Assembly: GCF_002234675.1 (NCBI RefSeq)
Contig: NC_019863.2
Coordinates: 2,284,609 to 2,348,608, forward strand
Length of the DNA: 64,000 bases
Direction: 5' to 3'
From: Oryzias latipes
Taxonomy: Eukaryota; Chordata; Actinopteri; Beloniformes; Adrianichthyidae
Under the pieces are notes generated by a model. That model searched no databases, was not told the origin of the DNA, and worked only from the letters and a program-made list of their open reading frames with translations. This document shows, in pieces, positions 3,701-63,353 of the stretch; the stretch's first letter is position 1, and the number at the start of each line of letters is the position of its first letter. The position numbers and the translations under genes are program-made.

Positions 3701-4078
3701 TTGGCCAAAATGCAGGAAGTTCTGAATATTGAGTGCTTTAAACCAGACTGTATCTTCTGTTTTTTTGCCTTCAGTTATTATTTCACTATGATCCGTTTGA
3801 TTAATCACACGTCTGTTTCGGTGCTGCAGAGTTTCCCGGCTGAAGGTGGCCATGGCTGGTGGAGCGAGCCGTCCCTGCTGATCTCAGAGCTGCAGGTGGC
3901 GCTCCATCCCAAACCTCGTCGAGGCCGCCACTTTTCCAGTTGGTATCTTCCGGCCCCGTCCCTCTCTCCGTTCCCTGCGCCTCTGTTTCCTCTCACGTCC
4001 CGTCTCCCTTCAGAATGAGTTGCTGCTCGGCTGCAGGACGCGGGTCCCGCCGCTGAGGCCACATGTGCATCTGGAGAG
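3575..4078 (+). other. Upstream region of usp49, probable 5' UTR and promoter; exons not resolved
   Basis: GC content rises toward the usp49 start codon. There are possible 3' splice sites ('tttttgccttcag' about 3774, 'gtgctgcag' about 3829). None can be confirmed without transcripts. The immediate upstream neighbour is a hAT element ending at 3566. Confidence 0.35.
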
Positions 4079-7000
4079 ATGGATCGCTGTAAGCACGTGG
4101 GACGCCTGCGTCTGGGTCAGGACCATTCCATCCTCAATCCGCAGAAATGGCGCTGTGTGGAATGCAGCACGACAGACTCGGTGTGGGCCTGCCTGAAGTG
4201 CTCCCACGTGGCCTGCGGCCGCTTCATGGAGGAGCACTCGCTCAAACATTTCCAGGAGTCGCAGCACCCGCTGGCCATGGAGGTGCGGGAGCTGGACGTC
4301 TTCTGCTTTGCCTGTGGAGACTATGTTCTCAATGACAATGCAGAGGGGGACCTCAAACTCCTCCGGGGGGCGCTCTCCACGGTTCGGGTCCCGGGCCGGC
4401 GCTCGCTGCGCTCCTCAACCGGCGGGGACTGCACCCCCTGGGTCGGGGAAGGCGGGCCGCAGCCGGCCATGCAGCTGGCCGTGCGCCACAGGAGGAAGGC
4501 GCTTCTGGGGAAAATGCTTCAGACGTGGATCGGCAAACACCAGGAGGTGCAGAGTCGGCGCAGAGAGAAACTGGAGGAGGCCAGGAGACAAAAGAAGGAG
4601 GTGAAACGAAGGCTGATGGAAGAACTCGGTAGTGCTCCTCCCAGAAAGAGTGCCAGGCTTCTAACTCAGGGGCCGCGGTCCACCGTCACACTCATTCCTC
4701 GCAAGTTTCGCGACCCCCCAGAACGTCTACCTCCTCCTCCTCCTCCTCCTAAGAAGCCTTCGCTCCTCGCCGTGTCCCGCAAGGCTCCTCGGAACGGCAG
4801 AGCAGCTAAACTGAGGAGGTATTACTCCACGCACGCGGCGAGCCGGCGGAGAATCGCTCCAGGCGTCACCGGCCTGCGGAACCTGGGCAACACGTGCTAC
4901 ATGAACTCGATATTGCAGGTGCTGAGCCACCTGCAGAAATTCAGGGAGTGCTTTCTCACTTTGGACCTGTGTGAGACCGAGGAGCTGCTGGCCAAGACCA
5001 ACCACTCCCCGCCGGTGACGGGGGCTGTTGTCGGCGGCGGGAACGCACTGCTGTCGGAACGCCCTCTAGGAGCCACGGATAAGACGGGTTGCTGGAATGT
5101 TCCAATAGGGCAAAAGGAGAGCGCCCCGCCTCCCTCCAAGTCGGCGGAGTTGGTCCAACCCAAGGAGCCGCGCTGCTCCGCCCGCCAGAAGATGTCTCTG
5201 TGCCACGAGTTGCATACACTTTTCAGGGTCATGTGGTCCGGGCGGTGGTCCCTGGTGTCTCCCTTCGCCATGCTGCACTCGGTGTGGAACCTCATCCCGG
5301 CGTTCCGGGGCTACGACCAGCAGGACGCCCAGGAGTTCCTGTGCGAGCTGCTGGACAAGGTGCAGCAGGAGCTGGACACGGAGGGGTCCAAGCGCCGCAT
5401 CGTCATCCCCATCACCAAGAGAAAGCTGTCAAAGCAGGTGCTCAAAGTCCTCAACACCATCTTTCACGGGCAGCTACTGAGCCAGGTGAGCGCTGAGGGT
5501 CCATTTGGGTCGTCCCACACCACATTCCCACTCCCAGCAGCTTTTGATCTGCTGTAAAGTCCTTCCCAGCTGTATTTTAATGAGGATTGTTGTTGTTTTG
5601 GGCCAAAAACCTGTGACGTTTTCTAGGACATAGTTTCTGCAGAGCGGCAGGAGTTCATCAGACATTTATCAGGACTGTAGGCACAAAGCAATTCCGCAGC
5701 TCATAACTGAGAGCTCTCTGTTTACACACTCTGCTGCTAGTTTACAGCTCCTCTCAACTCCTAGATAACGAAATAAATATAAATAAAGAAATCCTCAGTA
5801 ATGCAACGTTGAGATTAATCTTTTAAATATTTGTCCTCAATCCCCTGAAAAATGCCACAAGAAGGTGTCAGAAACCTCAGAGTGAGAAGCCTTCTCACCC
5901 TCTTTGGAGAACTCACCCGTTTGCGTTCTTCCTCCAGGTGACTTGTCTGTCCTGTAAGCACAAGTCCAACACGGTGGAGCCGTTCTGGGATCTGTCCTTG
6001 GAGTTCCCGGAGCGCTACCACAGCGCAGACAAAGGCTCCGCCTCCACGGCCTTCCACCGCAGCTGCACCCTCACAGAGATGCTGTCCAAGTTCACGGAGA
6101 TGGAGGCTCTGGAGGGACGCATCTACGCCTGCAACCACTGCAACAGTCAGTGCACAAAATGACCTTTGACCGGGAAAGTGTTGAGAGTTTGACATGTAAC
6201 AGACAGACGGTAGCCGCGGCTCCACGTGCAAAGTGTTTAGAATTCAGCCGTGTGCATGGGGCCAGAAAAACGTTTTCCGATTATAACAAACGTGTCAGGA
6301 GAGGGCTAACACACGCTAACAACATTTAGCCTTTGATGAACATAAAATCCATGCGGGAAATGCTGCAATCTGCATCCTGGGCCCAAAGCCGCCGTGAGCT
6401 GGCGGTCCGAGCTCTGCTCAAAGACACAGTTCTACCGGGAGACCCGGTTCTCCTGAGTCCGGCAGCTCGTTCACCTAAAGCTGCGGGACGGTTCGCAGTC
6501 CGAAGACAAAGCATCCTCCCCTCCCCCCAAACACAGAGCTGTAAGTCCGGCTGCTCTGCACGGTTATGTCGGCCCACCGGCAGCCGCGCCCGCACCGCGC
6601 AGGTTCCAGACGTCAGGAGGCACGGAGCGCTCCTACCCGGTCCCCCTCCCGTGCCTCCTTCTCCAAGGAGGCACGGGAGGGGCGGGGAGCCCGCGTGGCG
6701 AGGGCGGACCGCAGAGGGCGGTCCCGTTTGCGCTCCACAGCTTTCTCTGGAGCGAAGCACCTTCTATGCATGACGTAAAACCCACGATCGGAATGAACCG
6801 TTTCCATGCACAACGAAGTGCATGGAAACGACAGCTTTAATTTTTCACAGTAATTCTATTTGTTTTAAGGGCGTAAAGCTCCTCTCTACACACTTTATCC
6901 CCTTTTTGCAGACAGACATGAAGTATCGTAGAAAAACAAGCCCAGTACTGTAAGGGGATGAAGCAGAGGGAATCATTTAAGAATTTATGTTTGTCTGCAA

Positions 7001-7267
7001 ACATCCGTTTGTTTCCAGCATGTTCTGGGTTTTTCAGGTGAGAGCAGTTTAATGTTTGGAAGACAGAAATCTTGTAATATTGCAGCAGATATGTCAAGTT
7101 AATTCTAGCACTTCCGGGTTTTTAATGTTCCGTCCATCACTAGAATGTGTTTAGGAATGAAAGCAGGTGAAACTATCCACACACGATTTACGGAGCCGCT
7201 GCTCTCCTGAAGTGAAGGATGATGTCATCTGATGGATCATCTATGGAAAGTCTTGACCTGTCTGTGC

Positions 7268-7302
<35 letters not shown>

Positions 7303-7881
7303 GCAGGAAGAAGAAGGAAATCCTCCCACAAACCCTTAGTTCTGTCAGAAGCCTGTAAGCAGCTTCTGATCTACCGTTTACCTCAGGTTCTACGGCTGCA
7401 CCTTAAACGCTTTCGGTGAGTTTCTTGACACGTCGACCACCGGTGACGCCCACAGCGTTATCCTCACGCTAACTGGCCTTTGTTGCACGGCAGATGGTCT
7501 GGGCGGAACCACAGGGAGAAAATCGGCGTCCATGTGGCCTTTGACCAGGTTCTGAAGATCCAACCGTACTGCTGCACAGACTCGGGTCACTCTGTCCACA
7601 GGGGGGGCTACGTCTACGACCTGTCTGCTGTGGTCATGCATCACGGCAAAGGCTTCGGCTCAGGGCACTACACCGCATACTGCTTCAACACCGAGGGGGG
7701 TGAGGAAGAGTCCGGCTCCGTGTGGGAACGCCGCGGGCCCCCGCTGTGCGCTCACGTCTGTGCTCTGCCGTCCTCAGGGTTCTGGGTCCACTGCAACGAC
7801 TCGGAGATGAGGGTCTGCAGCGTGGAGGAAGTGTGCAACACTCAGGCCTACATCCTCTTCTACACACAGAGGTCTGCCTAG
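4079..7881 (+). CDS. usp49: Ubiquitin carboxyl-terminal hydrolase 49 (histone H2B deubiquitinase)
   Basis: There are five coding exons, 4079-5485, 5938-6145, 7307-7415, 7494-7699 and 7778-7881, all with GT-AG junctions and consistent phase, giving 677 aa (human USP49 is about 688). Residues 1-100 form a UBP zinc finger (C4, H6, C26, C29, C38, C41, C46, H53, H57, C76, C79). A basic linker includes a run of seven prolines. The USP fold follows: Cys box [18 protein letters not shown] with catalytic Cys273, finger cysteines CLSC and CNHC, and His box [10 protein letters not shown] with His633. It is chosen over paralogue USP44 because of the N-terminus [12 protein letters not shown] and the tail [14 protein letters not shown]. 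The family removes ubiquitin from H2B in the nucleus and influences co-transcriptional splicing. The start is the first ATG of the zinc finger, in context GAGAGATGG. Confidence 0.95.
6180..6840. repeat. Family D DNA-transposon-like repeat in usp49 intron 2
   Basis: It shares 'ccgattataacaaacg', 'gctaacaacatttagcc' and 'aatccatgcgggaaa' with copies at 29190-30379 and 49340-50640. It ends in 'gtgcatggaaacgac', the inverse of 'gtgtgcatggggcc' at its start. This explains the GC-rich overlapping ORFs at 6326-6813, which are not genes. Confidence 0.6.
7269..7301 (+). repeat. (TG)n microsatellite abutting the usp49 exon 3 splice acceptor
   Basis: About 16 TG dinucleotides run straight into TTGCAG, the acceptor of the exon starting at 7307. 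They replace the normal polypyrimidine tract. Confidence 0.9.
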
Positions 7882-11924: not shown

Positions 11925-14900
11925 TTAACTGGGCAGCAGCCACACCTCCACAAAGTCCCACTGCTTCCACAGCACGAACAGCAGCAGGGTCAGCAGCACC
12001 GTGGACGCCACGCGGGCTCTGGTCTTCATGAGCGGCGTGATGAAGTTGGCCAGCGTGGAGACGAAGACCAGCAGCACGGCCATGAGGGCCAGGATGACGT
12101 TGATGAGCTTCCCCAGCAGGGCTCGGGCGTTGGCGTTCTCCACCCCTTCCAGCTGCACCACCTGCTGCTGCTGCTGCTGCAGCTCCAGCTTGGTGATGCG
12201 GGTCAGACACGACTCCACGGCCTCCTGCGGGGACAGAGCAAGGCGCCGCCGGCACCACGGTTCAGCTCATCGCAACATTCCAACAAACCTGCTGTTTCTT
12301 AAATGTTTATTTGTTTTGAAATGTTATTAAAATACGCCGCTAACGTGAGTTTGTGTCATTTAAACGTCATCTTTCAAAGAACTGACTTTTAAATGACATA
12401 AATCAACAGCTTTAGCAGCTTTAATGCCTTTGTTTCCCTCAAAAGGTCATTTTTAATCAACCAAAGTTTATTTTTGTATCCTGATTAGCATTGCTATTAG
12501 ATTCAATACACACTGTTCTCAGGAGAATAATGTCAAGAATAACTTTTATATGCATAAACCTTCATTTAATCTAGTAAAACGACAGTGATAAGTGATTAAA
12601 CCCCCTGTTCCATGAGCGGTTTTCACTAAACCTCCATGAAATCATGAACGCAGCGAAGAATGCATTTATTTCATGACTGTTTCTGGGTATTAACTCCAAA
12701 TGTTTGATTTCATTCGGACATTTTCAACGCCTGATGGATTGACAATGGCTGTCTAATCCAATCGAAGCTAATCTTTTTGAGAATGGGGCGTGGCCTACAT
12801 ATTTCAAATGATCTGTATGAGAAAAACAGATATTAGTTCATCCTGGAGGTAATTATTTGTTGGGTCCTTTTTTTCAGTTTTTAAGCAATTTCTTTACATG
12901 CTTGGTGTCATTTAAATGTAGATTAACTCATTCACTGTTAACATTATAACAAAGACGGCCATTTTTGTTTGATCTCCAATACGTTGATATCATGAATGTT
13001 CTTTCAGGCACAGCAGACTAGGCTGTGTCCAAATTCCTTCCCTATTCCCCACATAGTGCACTATATAGTGCGTTCACCATTTTGTAGTGCCGTCCGAATC
13101 TACATTTACAAAATCAAGTGCCCTAGAAATTTCCCAGAAGTCTCTGCAAAAAACCAGCGTGCATCGATCTTCGAATATAGACCACAATGCATTACGTCGG
13201 AACAATTTTTGCCCAAAAGATTTATTTAAATGTGTTTTTTTTAACAAACCATGAACGTTTATTATCTTCAGAAGACACTGGTCTTCAGTGGTCAGCTCTG
13301 AATCGGGTCGCTACAAAGCTGCAGTTTCCTCCAGGCAGGACGGGTCTGTACCTGAATGTCTCTGGCTCGCTCGTAGGACTGGTAGGCCACCTTCTCCTCC
13401 ATGCTGGCCAGCTCCTGCTTCAGGTTGGACATCTCATTCTGGTGCAGCTCGGTGAGGTCGTTCAGCTGCTCCTCCAGACGCTCATACCTGAACGTGCATC
13501 GCAGCATTTTAAAGTCACCAAACATCCAAGACGTCCACATGTCCGATCATGCACAAAATGTGTCTTTTCTTCACGAGACAAACCAGCGACGGCACTTTGT
13601 GATGAATCTACTCTCACAGAAAGAAAGACATGCATTTTCATCCGCAGGTTTAGGTTTAGATTTGAATTGATTCCAGAAGCACGGAGAATGATTTTGGAAG
13701 GTTTGTCTTCCTGTTTTTGATCTTTGAGGGTTCGCTGTTGTGTTTGCGTGGACGCATCTTTGTTTACCACGGGGTTTTTGAAGCAAGCTCCCCGTGTGCC
13801 GCGGGGAATTATTCAATTTCCTCTTAGTGGAAAACATTTAGCCAGGATTGCCAGGAATATCAGCTCTATGTTCATCCAAACTGGACCAGGTTTCACACTG
13901 AGGAGTCAGGAAAATGGTAAAATGGTAAATGGGCAGCCGTGGTGCAGCGGTAGGGCGGTCGACCCATGATCGTAAGATTGCAGGTTCGATTCCCGCCTTG
14001 CATGCCCATGGGTCGAAGTGTCCTTGGGCAAGACACTGAACCCCACCTTTCCTCTGGTGGTAGGCGGGCGCCTGTGTTTGGCAGCGGAGCCGCCACCAGT
14101 GTGTGAATGTGTGTGTGACTGTAAAGCACTTTGTCCTTGTAGGAAGAAAGGTGCTATATAAGTATACACCATTTACCATTCATCCAAACTGGACCAGGTT
14201 TCACACTGAGGAGTCAGGAAAATGAAAGATCATAAAGGACTTTTTTGTGCTTGTTTGATTTGATGCTTTGAGTTGAAATTTTCTCACATGCTTTTGTGCT
14301 GTTGAGCCTTGTCATTATTATCAAGGAGTTTAAAAATCCTGCTTTGTGCAATAATACATGCATTCTACATGCATAAGGAGACTATATGAGTTTAGGACAG
14401 GGCTCTGGAACCTGAGGCTCGGCTCTTTAACCCCTTCATTGTGGCTCTTTGGCTTTAAAGGCATGAATACAGTAGTGGGTTTGCTAGTTTTGGTTCATTT
14501 GTTTTCATTGATAAAGTTTTGTGGTTGTTTTTATATTCTGATCTTCTGCTGTACAACAGTGTCTAGTTGCTGTTCAGAAGCAACATTCTTAAAATATACA
14601 GTTGCATTTACATGTGTTGATTTAAAAAAGACGGGTTCTGCACCAGTGTTGTCGTGTTTCTATTTGACAGTAGGAGGAGAAAATGGATAAAGGTGCACCA
14701 CTGTCACAATGACAGAAAATGACATGTTTGATTGGATTTCTTAATAGGTTGAATGTTGTAAATCCTTCAACCCATTGTTTCTCTGTTTCTCTTTCTTTAT
14801 TATAGTATCGTCCACCATTTTTTGGTGCTTAACACAATTTTTTCAGTTATTTTAACCATTCATTTATTCAAATGTTCTGCTATTTCAGCTTATTTCAGCT

Positions 14901-17900
14901 GTGACTTTTGATCCTTCAAATCCTTGAACTTTTCCAGATATTCCAGGATTTTTGCCTCCATTGAAATCCATGGGGAATCCTTGGTGCAGAAGCTCGCTGG
15001 TTCGAGACCCTGCGCTGGCATTTTTCACAAAAACATCTTTTTTGTTATTGTGCTGTTTTCATTTTCTGAATTTTCTTGTGGAAATGCAGCTTCAAGTTAC
15101 TCTTTTGCAACGGGAGGATCTTATGTGACTCAGGGTGTATTTTATTTTGAAAGAATATTTTGAATGTAAGTGCTGCTGTCGAAAGTAGGAGAAGCTAAAA
15201 TTGTTATAGGAAAAAATAACACTGCTACTATTGAAGTTATGTAAATATTTGAATGAATGGCTTAAAGACCCACTCCAATGGAAATGCTGCTTATGGTGTT
15301 TTAACATGTTCTTGTAGCATCACATTCAAATGGTTGTGAATCAGGAACCATTTGATAGTGTTTAGAGTGTTTTGTGGCGTAAAATCTACAAATTGCGGCC
15401 CGTGAGCTCCCTGTTCCACTCCATTCTGATGCATCACCTGCAGACAAACCGAACCATGAAGGTCTTCGTGTTCCTCGTTTGAGCTGGAATCTGGATCTAA
15501 ACTGGACGGCTGGATAGCTCTGATATTGATCAACATTTTTTTTGCACTGCTCTTGTTAGGTTGGGGATTTGAGGGGCTGTAAACTAGCAGGTGAGCATGT
15601 GAACAAATGGATGATGGGAACTAGTGACAATCTTCTTCTGCCCAGTCCAGCTCAAAACTCAGAGGTGAATTTCTGATGAACTCCTGCCGCTCTCCACAAA
15701 CTGTCTCCTAGAAAATGAAACAGGATTTTTGAATTTGGCCAATAACAGCATCATCAGAATTAAAGACCACTGCGAATGCTTTGACAGTGGATCAAAAGAT
15801 GATTGGAGCGGAACTTTAATGTTCACAAAGACAGAAAAAAAGGTGTTTTTTTTCTAAAAAGTGAACTTTGTGGCTCTTTCTGGGTTTTGCTCAATAAAAA
15901 ACTGGACCAAATGTCTCTTTTAGTGTTAAAGGCTACAGACCTCTGGTTTTAGGAAGATGAGAGAGCAAAGATCCTCACGAGGAATTCCAAATTAAAAAAC
16001 AGCAAGCCAAGCAAAAATACAGTCCTTCAATTACCAGATGTTATATGTAATCCAGTAAACGGTCAAATCATATGAATTGCTTTTTGTTAAGCAAAAACAA
16101 AAAACATAGAACAGTTTGAATGGGATTTATATAAAGAAACCATAGACACCCCCCACCGCCGCACCTTAGGGTTCATTGAAAACTGAACGGGCCGTCACAT
16201 TCTGGACCATCTTTACGGGTTTGCTGTGAATGCTGGGAGACTAGAGAGAAATGTTTTGAAGGTTGAGAAGATGAACTTTGTCCTGAAACTCCACATTCTG
16301 AACAGGAAGTAACTGGAGCCGGTTCAGTTCAGCACAGCTCCGTTTGACACCAAACACAAGTTGTTTCCTAAACCTTTTTACAGTCACCATGACAGCTGCA
16401 CTGGGGAGATTTCAACCATCAGTGTGTACATAAAGTTCACAGAGCAAAGAGTAGAAGCCCATGAAGGCGGGGCTTTGGTATGATACAGTTGGCGAGCTGG
16501 CAACGACCATGGAACCAAAATAACTGACTTCCTGTTGACCCAAGACGTTTCTCAGCAAGTAGAAAAGTTTGCCAAAGAATTCCGGACAGAGGTTGTGTGT
16601 GACGGAGATGGTGTGTGTGTTCTGGTGAGGGGGGGGTCTGTACCTGTATCTCTCCTCTTGCAGACACTGCGTCATGTAGGAGTAGTCGCTCCGCAGCTGC
16701 CCCTTCATGTCCTCGATGGCGTCCTCCATGTGAGTCTGACTGGCTTTGATCTCCTGCAGCCCCTCCAGAAGAGAGTCCCAGGAACCGTGGATATGGTGGT
16801 GGTGGTGGTGTCCGTCCAGGCGGGGGCTCCCCATCACTGGTCCCAACATCCCCCCTCCTGTTCCGGCCCCCCCTGAATTGCTGCCCACAGCAGAGCCGGA
16901 TGTGGCGCTGGAGCACTCGTCGTCGCTGCCGTACTTTGGGCTGGAGACCAAGGTGGCGCTGCCGCTGAGGGCGCGGGGGGTGGGCGTGTCCTCAGAGTGG
17001 CCCCCGACTCCGTCCTCGAGTGTGTCCTTCAAGTGAGTAATGTTATCAGCGCTGCCAAACTTGTTCCTGATCAGGCTGGCAAACTCTCTGGGCTTGGAGA
17101 CCACAGCTGTGTGGGTGAGTGCAGAGACTCCACCCTTGACCCCTTCAACGACTCCGCCTCCAAAGCCACTGATACCAGCACGAACGTTGGCTCCCACATC
17201 CTTTAATCCCTGCTGCATGTCTCGCAGGACATCCTTGGGCTGCCGGGCAGGGCCGTTCTGCAAAGAGGAGAGAGGAAACGAAGAAGCAGAGAGGTGGTGT
17301 TTGGGTTTGAGGGTGAGGAGAACAAGTCTGCAGAGTTTTGGTGAGACACAGGTCTGTCTACCTGCATTGGTAGAAATACAGGTGGAGTCTGAAGCACATA
17401 GAACCAGACTCTCCCAGGAGACTATTTAAAAATGTCCCTTTCCAAGGTCCACTCACTGGCCACTTTCTTAAGCACACCTGTCCAACGACTCGTTCATGAA
17501 CATTTCTAATCAGCCAATCTCATGGCAGCAACTCACTGCATGTAAGCGTGGTCCAGATGATCTGCTGCAGTTCAAACCCCGTATCAGAACGGAGAAGAAA
17601 AGGGATTGAAGTGACTTTGAACGTGGTTTATGGTGCCAGACAGGCTGGTCTGAGTATTTCAGAAACTGCTGATCTACTGGGACGTTCCCCCACAACCATG
17701 TATAGGGTTTACAGAGAATGGACAGAAAAAGAGAAAATATTCAGTGAGCTGCAGTTCTGTGAACAGAAATGCCTCGTTGATGCCAGAGGTCAGAGGAGAA
17801 TGACCAGACTGGTTCCAGCTGATAGAAAGACAACAGAAACTCAAAGAACCACTGGTTCCAATTGAGGTCTGCAGAAGAGCATCTCTGAACGCACATGTCC

Positions 17901-23250: not shown

Positions 23251-23840
23251 ATTACCTCAACTCCCAGCACGAATAACCCAACAATTGTGTTGAAGAAAAT
23301 AAAGGTGTGTGTAGAAAAACACAGATAAAACTCCTTCAGCGCTTCATCACCTCTTCCTCTCCTTGGATTGAGTTAGGATCCAGAAAAACCATCAGCCTTT
23401 TATTTCAGATTTATCACGGATCCACACAAACACGATGAATAACACAATAAATAAGAGTCGACTCCTGAGGAGCTGAAAAGTGATCGCATGACCAGAAGCA
23501 TCAGCAGAAGTGCATTGGGGCAGGTTTGCTCTTTTCGAAGCCGTCAGTTCATACATGATTAAAGTGACCTTACATGACTCTCATCCAGATTAGGCGGAGC
23601 AGCAGGATTTGCTGGACAGATATGTCGTTTACAAGCGGAGAGCAGTAGTTCCATCCATGACACCTTTGCTCCTGATGGAAAAACCTTCCTCACGAATACA
23701 TTTGGACCTGAAAATACTGTTCCTGATCGTCCTTTACGCACCTTAAAATACCTACAAGTACAACTTCTGTGCAATACTGCAATGTTTTTAGATTTATACT
23801 ACTCAAATACATCTGATATATGCTGAATATATATCTATAA
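23251..23840 (-). other. Region downstream of cdkn1a, possible distal 3' UTR
   Basis: A minus-strand AATAAA (TTTATT at 23398-23403) is the first obvious polyadenylation hexamer after the cdkn1a stop. If used, the 3' UTR would be about 1.3 kb and would include the piggyBac-like element at 23841-24152. Nothing else was recognised. Confidence 0.3.
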
Positions 23841-24152
23841 CCCTTGTGCTATCTAGTAGGGTCCAGATGACCCCACTCCCAACGTTAACATGCCTTGGGA
23901 GCACGTTAACGTTGGGAGTGGGGTCATCTGGACCCTACTAGACATATTGGCTTGTACAGCTCACCGTCTTGTGGGGTCCAGGTGACCCCAGTTGGAAGTG
24001 GGGTCATCTGGACCCCACAAGACAGTGAGCTGAACCTTTTTTTTCAATGTTTACATGAAATCCTCTCCACCTTTATCTACATTTCTCATGGTAGGGATAA
24101 CACGTCAATGTAAGGGTGGGGTCATTTTGACCCAACAACATAGCACAAGGGG
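23841..24152. mobile_element. piggyBac-like MITE (family A), 312-bp copy with internal palindromes
   Basis: It starts CCCTTGTGCTATCTAG and ends TAGCACAAGGGG followed by TTAA (24153-24156); the left TTAA has decayed to ATAA. The interior has two palindromes built from 'ggggtcatctggacccc' units (about 23868-23942 and 23968-24022). It is likely folded in single strand. Confidence 0.75.
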
Positions 24153-24714: not shown

Positions 24715-25637
24715 TCACTCGCCCGATTTCCGCGGCATCCAGACCATTCGTCGTTTAGCTTGGTAGAAATCTGCAGGGATGAAAGCGACACTGAGCTCAG
24801 GGGGAATCGGTGCAACGACACAGACGCAGCTGAACGTTCCACTCCCATCATATTTTGAGAAAAGCCTTCCCTGTCGTCTTTTGATTACGATTATGCCTTT
24901 TTTAGCCAAAATGAAATAATCTTGTCGTCACCTCTGAGATGTGGGCGGGGCATTAGCTCAGAGTAACCCCGCCCCTACCTCCCATTATCCATCTATTTGT
25001 ACCCTCTCTAGCTGGCTTACAGCCCCTCACATTACTCTTCTAGCTCAGACGAGGGACTAAAAAAGTTTTTTGGACCTATTTGTCTGTAAATGAATGCAGA
25101 TACTCTCTTTTTCTAACATTTTTTATCTGCTTTGAACAATTAAATACTAAGCTTTTCTTTATAAATGTCCTCCATCGTCAATAAAGCGTCATAAGAACAC
25201 GATTCAAAACAAATGAAAGCACCTGTGATGTTTGTCTGTTTCCTCTTCATCCCGGCCTTCTCCTCCTTCTCTGGTGTTTTCTCCACGTTGAAGATGTTCT
25301 CTGTCAGTGGGATGTTCTCCTTCTCCCTCTGCGGCAGCTCAGATCTTCGTCTCTTGGGGGGGGTCCTGGTCTCCGCCGTCTTCTGGACCCGTCCAGCATC
25401 CTGACAGCGGTACAGCAGCGGCACTCCGGCCCCCGGGACGCTCTCCCACAGGAAGTGGCTGCCCTCCAGGGGCTTGTCGGAGCGGAAGTCGAAGCCCCAG
25501 CGAAGGGACGCTTCGTCCAGGTCTTTCCGCAGGGCGGCCTGGTACTCCAGCTGAAGCTGCTCCCGGTCCACCGGGCCAAACAGGTTTCGCCTCGCGGGCC
25601 TCCTGGGAGCGGCGGGAATCCGCTTTGGAGCAGCCAT
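24715..25637 (-). CDS. cdkn1a: Cyclin-dependent kinase inhibitor 1A (p21-type)
   Basis: Two coding exons run on the minus strand, 25637-25223 and 24770-24715, joined in phase to give 156 aa (human p21 is 164). The cyclin-binding RRNLFG is at residues 16-21. The CDI domain continues through LRWGFDFRSDKPLEG. A basic stretch PPKRRR resembles a nuclear signal. The exon junction falls inside the PCNA-binding PIP box QTNITDFY (134-141), followed by the basic KRR (144-146). This PIP box identifies p21; p27 and p57 lack it. The protein blocks cyclin-CDK activity and PCNA-dependent synthesis in the nucleus. The start is ACCATGG at 25637; an in-frame earlier start in exon 1 is possible (see findings). 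The order with srsf3 matches human 6p21. Confidence 0.93.
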
Positions 25638-25765: not shown

Positions 25766-25835
25766 CATGACTGTTCACTCTACAGACCATCAGAGAAAAG
25801 CAGAGCTGTGCCTCTCCTCTCCTCCCTCCCTCTTA
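25766..25835 (-). other. cdkn1a: Candidate cdkn1a exon 1 (5' UTR)
   Basis: A strong donor (GTCATG followed by GTGAGC) ends at 25766. An acceptor, CAAACAG, sits before 25646. The implied intron is about 120 bp. The 5' limit is a guess. Confidence 0.4.
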
Positions 25836-26640: not shown

Positions 26641-26879
26641 GCCGTACTCACGCGGAGGACGCGCGCGCGCATCAAAACACCCTAGATAGGACTTCTGGAA
26701 AACTTTTTTTTGATTTAATAAGTTACCAGGAAACTTTTTTAATTCATATAACCAGAATGTTGGATCAACGACGCTGAAGTTAGCATCCGATTCACAGCTT
26801 CCGATTCGCGAGTGCACTAAAGGAGCATTCCACTGTTTTTTTTGCACTAAGATCTCCTTAGATGGGGTCCGGTTCAAAA

Positions 26880-27845
26880 ACTGCTGGACCTAGACTGCTC
26901 AAACCTGGATTAAATTATGATTTAGATACTGAAGAATACATTAAACACAGTTTCTGATTTGTGAAACCTTCCTCTGATTTGTGAAAATGTGAAATAGGTT
27001 GATTTTTATCGTATTTTACGCACTGAGTCCACCTTAGACCGGGTCCTGTTCAAAAACCACTGGACCTGGACTGCTCAAACCTGGATTAAATTATAATTTT
27101 GACACTAAAGAACACATTAAACACAGTTTCTGATTTGTGAAACCTTCCTCTGATTTGTGAAAATGTGAAATAGGTTGATTTTTAGCGCATTTTACGTACT
27201 GAGTCCACCTTAGACCAGGTCCTGTTCAAAAACCACTGGACCTGGACTGCTCAAACCTGGATTATATTATGCATTAGATAATAAAAGAACACAATAAACA
27301 CAGTTTCTGATTTGTGAAACCTTCCTCTGATTTGTGAAAATGTGAAATAGGTTGATTTTTAGCGCATTTTACGCACTGAGTCCATTTCAGACCAGGTCCT
27401 GTGCAAAAACTGCTGGAACTGGACTGCTCAAACCTGGATTATATTATGCATTAGATAATAAAGAACACAATAAACACAGTTTCTGATTTGTGAAACCTTC
27501 CTCTGATTTGTGAAAATGTGAAATAGGTTGATTTTTAGCGCATTTTACGCACCGAGTCCATTTCAGACCAGGTCCTGTGCAAAAACTGCTGGAACTGGAC
27601 TGCTCAAACCTGGATTAAATTATGCATTAGATAGTAAAGAACACATTATACACAGTTTCTGATTTGTGAAACCTTCCTCTGATTTGTGAAAATGTAAAAT
27701 AGGATGATTTTGACCGCAATTTGCGCATTGAGTCCACATTAGACCAGGTCCTGTTCAAAAACCGCCGGACCTAGACTGCTCAAACCTGCATTAAATAAGG
27801 ATTTAGATACTGAAGAATATATTATACACCGTATTTGATTTTATG
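26880..27845 (+). repeat. Left array of ~177-bp tandem repeats
   Basis: The motif 'tttctgatttgtgaaacctt' recurs at about 26950, 27127, 27303, 27480 and 27655, a period of 175-177. Each unit also has 'cactgagtccaccttagacc' or 'ctgctcaaacctgg'. The units are not CRISPR-like: the period is long and there are no unique spacers. Confidence 0.9.
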
Positions 27846-27989
27846 CAATTCAAAGGTAATGGGGACAAGGGAAGGACAACCTGAAGCAAAACACCAAAAC
27901 AGGAATTTTAAAGTAAATTAGGAAACAAACCAAGAAATGTTGAACAAAAAAAACTAAAATTTAAGTCAGGGGCTCATGCTAACCCTGAC

Positions 27990-29186
27990 CATAACTATGT
28001 GTCCAATCTGACATCTGTTTCCCAGTTTCTTTTGTATGTTGATGTCTGAGATTTTTATATCGCCTCTTCCAGCCTTCTTGGATTCCTGTAGTCCATCATA
28101 AAAGTGCCAGCTTTTGTCTGTTCCCAGTCGGTGGAATGCAACAAAATGACTTTGCGCACTCAGGTGATATGTTATGGCCACCGGCTCGTACCTGTGTAAA
28201 CAAATACAATAGTACAATCCAGTATAAAAAAATAAAAATAGAAAAAATGTCAGTGATTTAATGATTTATTTTTTCCCTCAAAAATTCAATCGTAGCAAAA
28301 AAAACACATGATGCTAATTAAATTTAACCCAATGCTATAAATTTCTACATTAGTTCTGCAATTTACGCCTTACTTTTCACCAAGAAGTTCGATCTGATGT
28401 GGCAACGCTGTTGGATGCTGGTTCTTAGTCAAAGCGTTTTTGTGAAAGATTGATACCAGTACAAGACATGGCAACCCGTGCACAAAGGTACCTCTTGATG
28501 TTCTGTTTTTGTTCTGTGCATGGCCCTGCACCTCTGAAAATTTTAAAAAGTTAGAAAGTCCACAATTTGTTTCAAATATTTTGAAACATATATATATGCT
28601 ACTTCATACATACCTTTTGCATGGAAGTAGTACGATAATGTCATTGGACCACTTGTCAACGTCAGCCTGCAACTTAGTGAGGTCTTCACACCTTGCAACA
28701 AAATTTAAAATAAATAAATAACTTGTATGGGTACATGTTACATAAACTATTGTTTCTCTTACAATAACAGTAAAAACAAGCAAACAGTTTGTTAAATAAG
28801 TGTATGTAAAAGTTGTATCAATAATTACAATGTACTTACACAATATCTATTGAGTTGTATCTTCTTTTTGCAGTTGGACAGGCTGGATTAAGACATGTTT
28901 GTACAACTTCTGTACTGTTAAGGAATTCAAGTCTACATGTGACCATGTCCTCCTCTGCCCCAAAAGCATCCCAGGTTGATCCTGTGAATCTTCCTAACTC
29001 ATTGAGCCACAATGCTTTTCCCTGTGCCCACTCCTCATTCTCAAAAAGGTTGAAGATATGGAGTAAAGTTGATATCCATCTATCACACTCTGATAGTTTT
29101 TGTAGCTCATTTTGTATCCCTGGCTTGTTTTTAATTGCCAGATAAATTGTGTAAAGGAGGTTGTCAGCTGAAAAAGTGTTTGTCAA
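27990..29186 (-). pseudogene. Transposon-borne gene fragment; C-terminal part resembles a USP-type peptidase His region
   Basis: Minus-strand exon-like segments: 29182 to about 28843 (after acceptor CACTTTTTCAG; LLYTIYLAIKNKPGIQNELQ ... CLNPACPTAKRRYNSIDI, then GTAAGT), about 28702-28620 (CEDLTKLQADVDKW ... PCKR, then GTATGT), and about 28193-27966 (YEPVAITYHLSAQSHFVAFH ... WHFYDGL). The spacing of SHFVAFHR and W.FYDGL recalls the His-box half of papain-fold deubiquitinases. The CxxxxCP pair could bind zinc. No Cys box is visible; the upstream part may have been replaced by the nested repeat at 29190. I cannot name the protein. Confidence 0.4.
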
Positions 29187-29189
29187 TAA

Positions 29190-30379
29190 GCGGTTACATG
29201 GGCAGAATATCTTGATCGGATCAATGGTCGGGTTAAAATTCACCCGTGCACATGGGCACAGAAAACCTTTTTCCGATTAGAACAAACGTTCCCATGGCTC
29301 ACGCTTTCGTTCGGAATGAATAATCTGGGCATGCGCACTGTGCAGTAGTGTAAAATCACCCGGATGCGGAACTAGATCCCGTTGTAAACAAACCGCTGCC
29401 ACAGAGAGACAGCATGTGCTGCAGCTCCGTAATACGAGACGACCTTTCAAACGTGCTTTTATTAATGTCATGAATATTATGAAGCGCCTGTTCGCTCATC
29501 GTTATATTTAATCTGTGTGGTCAGTGCTGTTTTGTGAATGAAACAGCTGGAAGAAGGCTGAGGACAGGCTAACACGGGCTAACAACGTTAGCCTTGATGG
29601 ACACGAGAATCCAGGACCGTGCGACAAACGCAGCAATCTGCATATTAGCGCACATAAATGTCTGGAAATAACAGCAGCCTTTATTTTGTCGGGACACAAC
29701 TGGAAACACAAATCCACGTGAAACCCCGCGACATTTATTTCTGCTCTGATTTCTGCTCTGAAAAGTTCACACAGACCGCCCCAACCAAAGCCACTCTGAG
29801 CTAGCGGCCGGAGCTCAGTCTGTTCGAACACCGTTCCTCCTGAGTCCTGCAGCCGCTAACCCAGAGCGGCGGCGCGGCTCGCAGTCTGGATTCTCCCACA
29901 CATAAAAAAACGCACACGTAACAAAGCATCCTCCCCCCTCGGACACAAAATTATTAATCCAGCTCCTCTGTTCACTCGGGTGCCAGTGGACCGAGTGAGC
30001 GTCGGGGGGTACGAAGCGCCCCTTCCCCGCATTCCCTTCGTAAGGGGTGTAAGAGAGGGGAGAGCCAGCGGGGCGAGAGCGGAGCGGCGCTTTTCACGGG
30101 GCGTCCGCAGAGCTGGACGGTCCTGTATGAGCTTTCTCACAGCCAAACACCGTCTATGCGTGACGTAAACCAGAGCAGTAGTGACACACGATCGGAATGA
30201 CCGTTTACATGCTCCACGATCGGATAAACGATCGGTATAACCCACCTATCTCAATCGGAAAGAAATTCTGATCCGAATGAGTCTGATCGGGGCAGAGTAT
30301 TCCGAACGGGGCGTTTACATGACACATTTTCTTTCCGATCAGACGTTCATTCCGATTACTTTTGCCCATGTAAACGCGG
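29190..30379. mobile_element. Family D element nested inside the foldback transposon
   Basis: The inverted ends are 'gcggttacatgggca' and 'tgcccatgtaaacgcgg'. It shares interior text with 6180-6840 and 49340-50640 ('gctaacaacgttagcc', 'ccgattagaacaaacg', 'aacacaaatccacgtga'). It interrupts the transposon-borne gene fragment. No transposase ORF was recognised. Confidence 0.7.
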
Positions 30380-30464
30380 CTATTGTAATGGTTTTTTGTT
30401 CAATAACTGCCTTTCCTCCCCACTGGGGACACGATCGCTTTTTTTTTTTTTTAATTCAGGGTCG

Positions 30465-31570
30465 GGCAATGTGTTCTTTAGTATCTAAATCCTAATTTAA
30501 TCCAGGTTTGAGCAGTCCAGGTCCAGCGGTTTTTGAACAGGACCTGGCCTAAGGTGGACTCAGTGCGTAAAATGCGCTAAAAATCAACCTATTTCACATT
30601 TTCACAAATCAGAGGAAGGTTTCACAAATCAGAAACTGTGTTTAATGTGTTCTTCAGTATCTAAATTCTAATTTAATGCAGGTTTGAGCAGTCTAGGTCC
30701 GGCGGTTTTTGAACAGGACCCGGTTTAAGGTGGACTCAGTGCGTAAAATGCGCTAAAAATCAACCTATTTCACATTTTCACAAATCAGAGGAAGGTTTCA
30801 CAAATCAGAAACTGTGTATAATGTGTTCTTTAGTGTCAAAATTATAATTTAATCCAGGTTTGAGCAGTCCAGGTCCAGTGGTTTTTGAACAGGACCTGGT
30901 CTAAGGTGGACTCAGTGCGTAAAATGCGCTAAAAATCAACCTATTTCACATTTTCACAAATCAGAGGAAGGTTTCACAAATCAGAAACTGTGTTTATTGT
31001 GTTCTTTATTATCTAATGCATAATTTAATCCAGGTTTGAGCAGTCCAGGTCCAGTGGTTTTTGAACAGGACCTGGTCTAAGGTGGACTCAGTGCGTAAAA
31101 TGCGCTAAAAATCAACCTATTTCACATTTTCACAAATCAGAGGAAGGTTTCACATATCAGAAACTGTGTTTATTGTGTTCTTTAGTATCTAAATCCTAAT
31201 TTAATGCAGGTTTGAGCAGTCCAGGTCCAGTGGTTTTTGAACAGGACCTGGTCTGAAATGGACTCAGTGCGTAAAATGCGCTAAAAATCAACCTATTTCA
31301 CATTTTCACAAATCAGAGGAAGGTTTCACAAATCAGAAACTGTGTTTATTGTGTTCTTTATTATCTAATGCATAATATAATCCAGGTTTGAGCAGTCCAG
31401 GTCCAGTGGTTTTTGAACAGGACCTGGTCTGAAATGGACTCAGTGCGTAAAATGCGCTAAAAATCAACCTATTTCACATTTTCACAAATCAGAGGAAGGT
31501 TTCACAAATCAGAAACAGTGTTTAATGTATTCTTCAGTATCTAAATCATAATTTAATCCAGGTTTGAGCA
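30465..31570 (-). repeat. Right array of ~177-bp tandem repeats (inverted relative to the left)
   Basis: The motif 'ggtttcacaaatcagaaact' (one copy reads 'cacatatcag') recurs about every 177 bp, near 30620, 30797, 30975, 31150, 31327 and 31505. The unit is the reverse complement of the left-array unit. Confidence 0.9.
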
Positions 31571-31707
31571 GTCTAGGTCCAGCAGTTTTTGAACCGGACC
31601 CCATCTAAGGAGATCTTAGTGCAAAAAAAACAGTGGAATGCTCCTTTAGTGCACTCGCGAATCCGAAGCTGTGAATCGGAAGCTAACTTCAGCGTCGTGT
31701 TGGATCA

Positions 31708-36798: not shown

Positions 36799-39700
36799 CT
36801 ATTTCCTGTCGTTTGACCTGGAGCGGCTGTGAACAGGAAGAACCACCAATGAGTTAAATCAAAGCATGTTTATCCTCAACACTTCAGGCTGAGATCAATC
36901 GAGGATGGCAGCAGTACCTCCTGGATCGAGAGAAGGACCGAGAGGGTTTGTGGTTCCTGTCCCTGGAGAGGGATCTTTCTCTCCTCCTGTCTTTGGAGAA
37001 AGACCTGAAAAAGGAGAAACCATCATGACGGTTTGCTTTTCTGTGACACAATCAAGAGCAAAGTGCACACGAGTTCGCCTGAAATTATTGTAGAATCACT
37101 GATGTCAGAGATAGAGAAATTCATGAGTGAGATAAAAGAATCGAGAGAATGCAGACATACCTGCTCCGGCTGCGGCTGAAGCTTCGCCTACGGGGAGATC
37201 TGCACAAGGAAAAGACAGCTGGTGAGCACAAAGACATTTGGTTCTTCAACGAAGCTCCACATCATATGACTTCTACCATAGACTACCTCAAACAGCCCTT
37301 TGTTGTCGCCAACAAAAACCAGAGATGAAAGCCTTTATTTCCAGGAGGGAAAAAAAAAATCCCCAAAGAAAATAGAGTCACTGACCATAAAGCCAAGCCC
37401 TCAGAGAAAGCAGAAGATCAGGAATCTCTGCTAACCTAGCCCACCACACTACTCAGGTCACATGACTACTCTAGTCAGAAAAAATGAATAGGGGTTAGTG
37501 TGTCCTAAGATGAAGCCCAACCCTGCATTCACACCAAACGCGATTCACGCCTCAAATTCGCAGCTGGATGCCCGTCCAGAATTGTGTTGATAAATTTGAC
37601 GCCTCCGCCACGTATGGGGGAGGAGCTACTGTCCAAATTCTTTAGCCCGACGGCTACTGGGAAGCATTGACATTTCTTTTCCAATGCACAGAAGACACGG
37701 TTGACGTCAAAATTTACATGGAAAAGCTCCACAAAAGCATCGGTAATCACGTCTCATGACATCACTCAACCTCACTTGATACGGCGAGCTCGGCCGTCCA
37801 CCGCAGGAGCTTCGTCTGAATGACTTGTCGTCCGAGGGGGAAAAATGAAAATAAAATTAGAGGAACTTATTATTGTGTGGGAACAAATAAAGACACAGCT
37901 CAGACGGAAAACTATCAGATTCTCCATTTCGGTTTTGGACACAGCCCTCAGATCACGTCATCACAGGCCTGAGGCAAGTCCCTGGGTGGTTAACGAATTC
38001 AACGCCAACGTTTAGACATTTGAAGTCTGGATGCACCGCCCGAGGCGCCGCTGCCGAACCTCAGATCGTGTCAGCACAAAACTGGACGCCTTCGACGTGT
38101 GAATCCCATTCGGTGTGAAGATAGCTTAAAAAATTACTGAAACAGGCTGCAAATTTTTCTTGTGCTAAAAAAAAAAGAAACAAATGTTGTAAACTGCTCT
38201 GTGTTTGACTAATCAACCCCCCCACTGACCCGTTTACCTGAAGCTAGCCTTTTTCCAGCTAACAGAGTTGTGACTGCTGTGACCTACGATGTGCCCAGAT
38301 CCCCTAACATCAGCACCATCAAGCTCCTCTGACAGCAGGCTCCATCTATCTGATCACTCCCATTGAAACAAAGACTCACATGGTGGATGACAAAGCTAGA
38401 GTTTAAACAATAAAAGTCTCTTCAAACCAGCTGTCTCTTCACTTTCAAAACTGAAATCAGCAGTGTACTGAATGAAGCAGGGAAACTTACTAGTTTTTTT
38501 GGATTTCAACAAGCTAGATATGACGAAAGGAAGGCAGACTGCCGGCCGCGTAGGTAGAATTGGCGGAATAGGAGTGGACAGATGCTGCAAGGTGATTAGA
38601 TGGCAGGCAGATGGGGGCTGGTTGTGGCTTTTTTCCTGCTTTAATTGGTAAGCTGACGGCTGCTGCTGGTGGGTTGTAGACATTTGGGAACATTTTACGC
38701 TGATTGGTCGGGAATGTGAAGTGGGTGGCTGCCCTTTGGTTTAAGGCTGAAGGAGCAGGAGGTTGAGAACGGCATGCTGAGGAACCAATGGGCTGGTGCA
38801 ACCTGACGACTGGCCAAGCCTGGGTCATGTGACAGCACCAGCCAAGCTGATTGGGACACGACGGTCAGCAGTCGCGTGATGCTGAAAGAGGACTAGTTGA
38901 CTGAGGGTGGTGAGAAGAGGCATGGTGGTGGTTCTGCAATGGGTTTCATTCTTATTAATATAGATGAAAAGTAAAAAAAAAATATAAAGACATTTGGCAG
39001 TTTTACCCCTCACACCGCCCGCCCCAAACTTTATACAAATTTACTTCTTTTTCCAAACTAAAAACTTTATTTATGACCTCTTGTCACTGTCAAACTCCTA
39101 AACAAAGATTTGGGTGTGCACACGAAACACACACAAAAGGACTCTGGCTGTTAAAAGCCAAAGTCCCATTCTACACAATGTACTTTTGACAAATATTTGA
39201 ATATTTTGTGTGTTTTCCTTGTTGCACAAAGTAAGCGCAGACAGGTCAACAGTCACCAAAAAAGAAAGAAAGAAAAGATAAATTAACAACACAACAACCC
39301 AGACTGGAAACCCAAAAGCAGTTCTCAGGAAATGTACTGTAAAGTAAATCACATAAGAGGATATAAAGCTAAGAAATCCCTTCCATCAAAGAACCCCTGG
39401 GTTACCTTCTCCTGGGTGGCGGGCTGCTACGCCGCCTGTAGTCGTCCCGTTCCCGCGGCCGCCTGCTCCACGATGGAGGAGCGCCGCGACTGCGGCTGCG
39501 CTTCTCCCCGTTAGACAGCTCCACGCGCACCCGGCAGCCGCACAGTGTCCTGCGACAACATTCACGCCTGTCATTCATTTCATACCAAACGCTGATTTCT
39601 GTGGAATTGCTGGTGGCCAGACAAACCCGTTTGGGAGGATTTTGCGGGCCGTACCTACAAAAATCACACAGGGAGGGACGTACCTTCCATCCAGTTCTCG

Positions 39701-39886
39701 CACCGCATCCGTTGCATCTCTGGGATCTTCAAACTCTACGAAGGCGAAACCTGGGGGGTTCCTGGCCACCCAGACGCTACGAAGAGGTCCGTAGTAGCCA
39801 AAGGCGCGCTCCAACTCGGTTTTGTTCCCATTGTTGCCCAAATTTCCAACGTAGACCTTACAGTCCAGGGGACAGTCACGGTGCAT
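36799..39886 (-). CDS. srsf3: Serine/arginine-rich splicing factor 3 (SRp20)
   Basis: There are five constitutive coding exons on the minus strand, 39886-39684 (exon begins 39894), 39549-39406, 37199-37161, 37004-36918 and 36826-36799. All are phase-consistent and give 166 aa (human 164). The RRM occupies about residues 9-82, with RNP2 KVYVGNL and RNP1 GFAFVEF, and [14 protein letters not shown] between. A linker follows ([15 protein letters not shown]), then an RS domain ending SRSRSNDRK. The N-terminus [10 protein letters not shown] lacks one Ser present in human MHRDSCPLDCK. The protein binds pyrimidine-rich RNA, promotes exon inclusion and mRNA export, and in mammals represses itself through a poison exon, which is also predicted here. 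The start is the first ATG after a CAG acceptor. Confidence 0.96.
38491..38933 (-). other. srsf3: Predicted srsf3 poison (NMD) cassette exon
   Basis: The acceptor TTGCAG precedes AACCACCACC at 38933, downstream of a T-rich tract. A strong donor, ACTAGTAAGT, places the exon end at 38491. The length is 443 nt; the mammalian SRSF3 poison exon is about 456 nt. Joined to the preceding exon (two bases carried over), the frame reads T-T-T-M-P-L-L-T-T and stops at TGA 38827-38825. That is more than 300 nt before the exon end, so inclusion should trigger nonsense-mediated decay. Confidence 0.75.
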
Positions 39887-40399
39887 GATGGAATCTGGAA
39901 TAATCAAAACCACGGGGTTATAAACACAAGGATCAGCTAAAAATATAAGAAGATGATAGATTACATTTCTGGTTTCAAATCAAGCAATTCTACTGTAGTC
40001 GACTGATCGGTTTCGTGGATGAACCAGGACAGACCAAACTAACAGTACGGCCGGAGATCCGCCTCTGCTCTGCCACCGATGATAATGATGCTCCAAATAC
40101 CTGTTTTTCAATGAGCCACAATAAACAAACGAAGATTTCGATAAATATAGTTACAAATGTTCTTACTTTGGTGGGCTGGGTCTAAATACGCATCGAGTTT
40201 CCACTACACGCGATCATCATTTAGAAAACTGATCCACATTTCTACCAAAGTTAGCATAAAATGCTAACTTTAGCCACACGATCGTGTAAAGTTAGCCATA
40301 ACCGGTAGCTTTAAGCTCACACTTAGCAACTCTATTTCAGTTTTGTAGTTTGACTTTTTTTTTAAACACACAGACTTCACTAACGGAGAAAACGGGTGA

Positions 40400-43184: not shown

Positions 43185-63353
<20,169 letters not shown>

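Follow-up and report, generated by a model that had tools for sequence, protein, structure and literature searches.

What is the 4.9-kb block of opposed satellite arrays that lies beside a cdkn1a (p21)-type gene in Oryzias latipes, and what put it there? The stretch of DNA analysed here, the window, spans 64,000 nucleotides and corresponds to C5:2284609-2348608 of the host genome (734 Mb, 25 contigs). Within it, an element of 4,931 bp occupies positions 26768-31698, bounded by perfect 9-bp duplications, GTTGGATCA. We are confident in classing it as a non-autonomous DNA transposon of foldback type, derived by deletion from a larger element; this parent would have encoded a DDE transposase and, downstream of it, a second domain. 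Its parts are given below in window coordinates; L009 and L010 are other copies of the same family in this genome.

26759-26767, no strand: left target-site duplication, GTTGGATCA (sequence match).
26768-26837, plus strand: left terminal tip, 70 bp, beginning ACGACGCTGAAGTTAGC (sequence comparison).
26838-27841, plus strand: left arm array, five full units of 176/177 bp and one partial unit of 123 bp (Tandem Repeats Finder, TRF, and unit comparison).
27842-30467, no strand: core between the arrays (comparison with family copies).
27966-29185, minus strand: decayed 3' fragment of the family gene, about four exon-like pieces, putative second domain (comparison with L009).
29186-30381, no strand: nested older repeat of 1,196 bp within the gene fragment (comparison with L009 and L010).
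30382-30467, no strand: rest of the core, which in L009 and L010 follows directly on the gene fragment (same comparison).
30468-31628, minus strand: right arm array, six full units of 176 bp and one partial unit of 105 bp (TRF and unit comparison).
31629-31698, minus strand: right terminal tip, 70 bp (sequence comparison).
31699-31707, no strand: right target-site duplication, GTTGGATCA (sequence match).

The two inward-reading ends, ACGACGCTGAAGTTAGC, lie at 26768-26784 (plus strand) and 31682-31698 (minus strand), and no third such site is present in the window at up to three mismatches, a search for which 0.13 matches are expected and in which two matches arose in 1 of 100 shuffles. Given the base composition, the identity of 9 bp at two fixed borders has a chance probability of 4.3e-6. 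An earlier interpretation made from the letters of the window (the sequence-only reading) had placed the borders at 26759..31707, which is exact, and its description of a perfect 9-bp duplication and of inverted ends with opposed arrays is confirmed in the window. It had further given a unit length of 177 bp, which is the size of one window copy; the period is 176, with TRF reporting opposed arrays of 5.5 and 6.4 copies at 92% and 94% matches. The arms form mirror images over ~1.07 kb at 93-95% identity, the right array exceeding the left by ~0.9 unit.

The element is one of many. Searching the host genome with the left arm gave 173 matches; the best 40 of 463 candidates were scored for the arm and the best 40 of 354 for the tip, so that all family counts are lower bounds. 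The resulting sample comprises 34 further loci, by our reading all those listed by the arm search, and the window copy, 35 loci in all, of which 31 are two-ended; the one-ended loci L035, L039, L041 and L042 were excluded from the duplication count, and both the gene-derived copies (C5:1276611, C7:30530902, C11:25242521, C7:16566403), left out of the 31, and additional tip matches (C5:7638594, C9:11712480, C17:12373020, C6:32232761, C15:12933930, C7:32712479) stand outside the counts. Exact 9-bp duplications flank 25 of the 31 two-ended copies, four show one mismatch, and two (L010, whose right end lacks the last 12 bp, and L021) have none. In all 25 perfect copies the longest exact flank match is 9, with lengths from 12 down to 4 tried, and by eye the duplicated 9-mers share no strong common motif. 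The flanks, compared over up to 350 bp per side, are unrelated among the 31 copies except for five pairs with 71-201 bp of repeat-like sequence at 76-85%. The dispersed copies are thus independent insertions, all produced by the same machinery through cuts staggered by 9 bp, and with long inverted ends made largely of tandem repeats, and dispersed duplications of fixed length, the element is by its structure a foldback-type DNA transposon. The core of the window copy is 99.55% identical to that of L010 over 1,344 bp, and the 235-bp cores of at least L019, L020, L022 and L025 are identical, which argues for recent movement. Both the prediction that inverted end pairs with 9-bp flanks would recur in the host genome and the proposal of a young element have held, the element having moved as one of a family. 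A literature search over titles and abstract openings returned no description of this family; Repbase and Dfam lay outside that search, so the family is possibly catalogued there. Two copies have peculiarities of their own: L012 encloses a further left tip with its array, both complete, as from nesting or from unequal exchange between two elements. In the right arm of L010, the copy with the most similar core, an open frame of 591 aa lies nested at element positions 3887-5659, with motifs that by eye recall a reverse transcriptase.

What does the core reveal about the source of mobility? Core size among the 31 copies is ~235 bp in 12 and ~450 bp in eight, while a gene fragment of 1.3-1.4 kb is kept in the window copy, L009 and L010. 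The last two lack the 1,196-bp repeat at the corresponding place and so provide its empty site, identifying it as a later insertion; divergent and rearranged relatives of this repeat are found at window positions 6237-6816 and 49175-50388. Among the exon-like pieces of L009 are NTCSVDNLLYTIYL and HFVAFHR...WHFYDGL, which by eye resemble a cysteine peptidase. At the position equivalent to NTCSVDNLLYTIYL the window copy reads NTFSADNLLYTIYL; by eye, its cysteine is lost, its frame is changed and its gene fragment is split by the insertion. Since only a broken piece from downstream of the transposase is kept, together with the nested 1.2-kb repeat, the window copy is non-autonomous, as the sequence-only reading had it, and the transposase sequence resides in a longer copy.

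This longer copy, of 11,210 bp, was reached by a protein search with the L009 exon and lies at C7:30530902-30542111. Each of its ends carries the tip (88-90%), followed inward by parts of the unit, and the copy appears old, with retrotransposon-like frames within it (by eye). Upstream of the peptidase-like part of its gene, and in the same orientation, is a block, SNAVVENWFRKIK; a 134-aa piece with this block finds a second broken copy of the gene at C18:23574598 (77%), in whose surroundings no tips or units were recognised. Three distant relatives are found with the same piece as well; one, an open frame of 626 aa at C24 (38% identity; genome search, E 1.9e-8), aligns to the C7 and C18 (C18:23567001-23587000) genes with E 9e-25 and 6e-23 in two-sequence comparisons. 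The blocks D1 (LYLDATG or LYFDATG), HxCxxH and N..VE.WF follow in this order in both gene copies, and by these motifs the C7/C18 gene is a predicted DDE transposase with a C(2)H motif. The C24 frame itself (L061:1698-3575, C24:1543001-1548500) has D, D, CxxH and E motifs and could belong to an autonomous sister element or be a domesticated gene; the surrounding 5.5 kb contain only a chance-level 14-bp inverted match, and its protein has no PDB match and no confirmed match among viral contigs.

Several observations weigh against this account of the element. The D2 block, TDHSW in C24, reads TGLSW in C7, with glycine in place of aspartate, and none could be made out in C18. The genes at C7 and C18 are both broken, and the analysis brought up no intact transposase gene flanked by these ends; the 11,210-bp C7 copy has parts of the unit rather than arrays. 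Three two-ended copies reached later through the gene have poorer duplications, matching at 7 of 9 positions in the C7 and C11 copies and at 4 of 9 in C5:1276611, as counted from the flanks. The second domain reached no Pfam family over the cut-off and no PDB homolog, and hhalign against the ubiquitin-specific protease (USP) of the window gave a probability of 0.3%, the query comprising only 3 sequences. The cysteine-peptidase nature of this domain is therefore a guess made by eye, and the narrower assignment as USP/USPL1-like was rejected, as neither Pfam peptidases, PDB nor hhalign support it. A Cupin_5 match of the C-terminal exon in Pfam (E 0.00079, 0.0035 and 0.01, below the cut-off) was taken as chance. 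The window exon has no confirmed match among viral contigs and plasmids, the tip pattern has 0 matches in viral contigs, and the unit pattern 0 in viral contigs and 0 in prokaryote genomes; a single-sequence fold of the window exon (mean predicted local distance difference test score, pLDDT, 54.8) was not used.

To which group of transposons does such an element belong? The account of Rehavkus in PMC6446971 gives 9-bp duplications, a PHD finger and terminal inverted repeats (TIRs) of 26-400 bp; from it and PMC10218199 comes a further feature, a minisatellite or satellite array within the terminal repeat or close to it. The fish element shares the 9-bp duplication and the satellite array in the terminal repeat; its TIRs depart from that range, with a mirrored arm of ~1.07 kb in the window and an arm length that varies widely in the family. 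That it is a true vertebrate member of Rehavkus, with a DDE transposase, a PHD finger, 9-bp duplications and satellite termini, falls in our estimate only a little short of an even chance. The duplications and a DDE transposase with CxxH speak for membership, as does a PHD-like cysteine pattern upstream in the C7 gene, interrupted by a stop, CVC (stop) ..CSCCRDWFH..WCCPSC, of which C18 keeps the two outer parts, CVC and WCCPSC, in different frames. Against it, Pfam gives no match in support of the PHD-like stretch, and the hosts listed in PMC6446971 are Arthropoda and Annelida, with no vertebrate. That survey also regards the vertebrate entries of Repbase for Mutator-like elements (MULEs) as misidentified. 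A further source (PMC4438587) lumps Mutator and Rehavkus together, and so does not settle the membership question. The comparison with Rehavkus is one of anatomy, and we take the filing as Rehavkus-like as a lead and not as a membership result.

In anatomy, the closest known systems are Rehavkus-1_TC and Tetris. Rehavkus-1_TC of Tribolium castaneum has inverted termini with short satellite arrays, with a unit of 164 bp present mostly in five and eight copies (PMC10218199); unlike the fish element it measures 9.5 kb and resides in an insect, and the fish arms reach 38 full units. Tetris of Drosophila virilis is likewise of foldback type; its TIRs contain tandem repeats of ~220 bp in varying number, its duplications measure 8-10 bp, and it is described in PMC4079207 as a satellite source with no transposase in the known copies. 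The fish family differs from Tetris in its host and in having a longer copy with a broken transposase sequence. Galileo, a Drosophila element, differs from the fish element in the length of its duplication. It shares long, internally repeated TIRs, which in Galileo have multiple transposase binding sites, and is assigned to the P superfamily (PMC3688188, PMC4079207).

The arms themselves vary widely in length. Across the family sample, the number of full units per arm ranges from 0 to 38, L021 being without a right array; in L034 (C14:19931600-19940400), flanked by a perfect 9-bp duplication, one arm has 3 full units and the other 38, its right array extending over 6,726 bp. The earlier proposal that the arms could seed satellite arrays receives partial support from the up to 38 full units in a single arm. 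Left and right unit counts are not clearly correlated (Spearman rho 0.29, p 0.13; 30 copies, L021 excluded). In a comparison of 354 full units, 293 of them internal, the mean distance of internal units is 0.0643 within the same arm, 0.0647 to the opposite arm and 0.0838 to other elements; of the 21 elements in which both arms have internal units, 18 show a smaller distance between left and right than to other elements. The equal distance across and within arms suggests concerted evolution, in which the two arms of an element change together. In the window copy, closely similar units pair in non-mirror order (L2-R5 with 2 differences in 176, L3-R4 with 2 in 175, L4-R2 with 4 in 176), and the minor variant occurs in both arms at 30 of 32 informative columns, a distribution of unit types that would fit exchange or conversion between the opposed arms.

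Could the arms instead be alike because they were recently copied together, without any exchange of sequence? Several copies look very young, and arms of common, recent descent could give the appearance of homogenisation. The nearest neighbours of the 293 internal units speak in the same direction and count against homogenisation: for 139 they lie exclusively in another element, for 86 exclusively in the same arm and for 21 exclusively in the opposite one, a pattern to be expected of young elements copied together with their arrays. The non-mirror order of shared unit types and the presence of variants in both arms run counter to this explanation, as do the freely varying arm lengths. We give joint copying a substantial share of the probability, yet hold it to be the lesser one, and retain homogenisation between the arms as the more plausible reading. 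The outermost unit behaves differently: in 52 of 61 cases its nearest neighbour belongs exclusively to another element, and terminal units stand at a distance of 0.118 from internal ones, as expected if it forms part of a functional terminus.

The consensus of the unit contains TCTGATTTGTGAAA twice, a 14-bp direct repeat with the copies 20 bp apart, and a repeat of that length arose in 0 of 2000 shuffles; all 21 exact window copies of CTGATTTGTGAAA lie within the arms. Conservation within the unit is highest around this repeat: for the window copy, the 60-column stretch around the motif has 4 variable columns, a value reached by 28 of 20,000 permutations, and across the 31 copies the internal units show a mean minor frequency of 0.030 and 0.022 in the two 22-bp motif bins and of 0.037 in the whole 62-bp block, compared with 0.062 in the remaining unit. 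A 19-bp stretch of the tip, CACAGCTTCCGATTCGCGA, matches CACAGTTTCTGATTTGTGA of this conserved block with transitions as the only differences. This similarity was noticed post hoc, which tells against it, and its score is reached by 16 of 1000 shuffles with +1/-1 scoring, by 5 of 1000 with a transition-tolerant scheme and by 143 of 1000 with +1/-2. From conservation and arrangement, the TCTGATTTGTGAAA pair is probably a candidate binding site of the transposase.

A less likely assignment is that of an ordinary MULE, Tm1- or Phantom-like, with long internally repeated ends. The 9-bp duplication of the fish element lies within the 8-11 bp given for MULEs in PMC6446971, and Tm1 of Meloidogyne shares with it 9-bp duplications, TIRs that are composite and contain tandem repeats in varying number, and the coexistence of coding and non-coding copies; its unit, however, is of 13-15 bp and its transposase resembles those of Phantom MULEs (PMC3169594). 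Between the Tm1 repeat and the fish tip the match extends over 7 bases only; 163 of 2000 shuffles and, among random stretches of the window, 51 of 2000 score as high, and a link between the two was rejected. The Pfam MULE model PF10551 gave 0 matches in the host genome, although 3 of its 14 control genomes yielded matches and these are all prokaryotes, and the 626-aa C24 protein matched no Pfam transposase model and no MULE domain; by Pfam a classical MULE was rejected, and we hold an ordinary MULE to be unlikely. Of the label 'Mutator-type (Rehavkus-like)' in the sequence-only reading, the part that agrees is the portion of Rehavkus anatomy set out above, while the Pfam results lend nothing to the part that names Mutator. 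It had also called for a relative encoding a Mutator-type transposase; the longer C7 copy carries DDE transposase sequence.

Tandem arrays do invert, and arrays are present on both sides here, yet a satellite array that was locally inverted and duplicated, with the 9-bp repeat arising by chance, has a negligible probability and is refuted by the dispersed copies, as 34 other loci share the arm sequence and 24 of the 30 other two-ended copies have exact 9-bp duplications in mostly unrelated flanks, where even one such match by chance is as improbable as calculated above.

The foldback transposon thus invites the following scenario. The transposase would come from another copy or a relative and recognise the 70-bp tips, and probably the TCTGATTTGTGAAA motifs too; the element would then be cut out and pasted into a staggered break, giving rise to the 9-bp duplication. 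Deletion derivatives such as the window copy would move in trans, a mode of mobilisation that we infer from the dispersed copies with the same ends, the exact duplications, the near-identical cores and the longer transposase-bearing copy. Meanwhile, the arrays in both inverted arms would gain and lose units, with unequal exchange as the probable cause, and those of the two arms would be homogenised with each other. A more far-reaching interpretation, which we put forward tentatively and consider rather doubtful, is that of a vertebrate superfamily of Rehavkus grade with its own DDE transposase and peptidase-like domain, in which the arms act as mobile satellite nurseries of one to tens of units, homogenised across arms and offering multiple transposase sites in the form of the duplicated 14-bp motif.

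The insertion lies outside of, and close to, a protein-coding gene. The sequence-only reading had placed it about 1 kb upstream of a candidate cdkn1a exon 1, and this is where it stands: the first coding exon has a CDI domain, and a candidate donor of an upstream exon, read by eye from the sequence, is found at 25766, 993 bp from the insertion. A last exon with a PIP-box-like sequence lies at 24770-24715 (by eye). The other genes recognised in the window are listed together with this exon.

4019-7878, plus strand: deubiquitinase gene with UCH and zf-UBP domains (Pfam domains).
11928-17425, minus strand: Tmemb_cc2 gene (Pfam domain).
25223-25637, minus strand, ATG at 25637: first coding exon of the cdkn1a (p21)-type gene, outside the element (Pfam CDI, E 1.6e-16; exon borders by eye).
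39578-39979, minus strand: RRM gene (Pfam domain), which we take to be srsf3 from its appearance.

Behind the coding part of the cdkn1a-type gene, at 23840-24030, is a near-palindromic stretch (GGGGTCCAGATGACCCCACT...) that by eye resembles a miniature inverted-repeat transposable element (MITE). A frame with a Myb/SANT-like DNA-binding domain at 61883-62107 on the minus strand (Pfam E 1.9e-13) is possibly from another DNA transposon.

Satellite arrays within moving elements have been proposed as a source of satellite DNA, with examples from Drosophila and a beetle (PMC4079207, PMC10218199). The 31 two-ended fish copies, with arms of 0-38 units, make the growth, shrinkage and cross-arm homogenisation of young arrays directly measurable. 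Should the transposase prove to be related to that of Rehavkus, this group would extend to vertebrates, and the insertion beside the cdkn1a-type gene offers a concrete locus for a study of polymorphism and expression.

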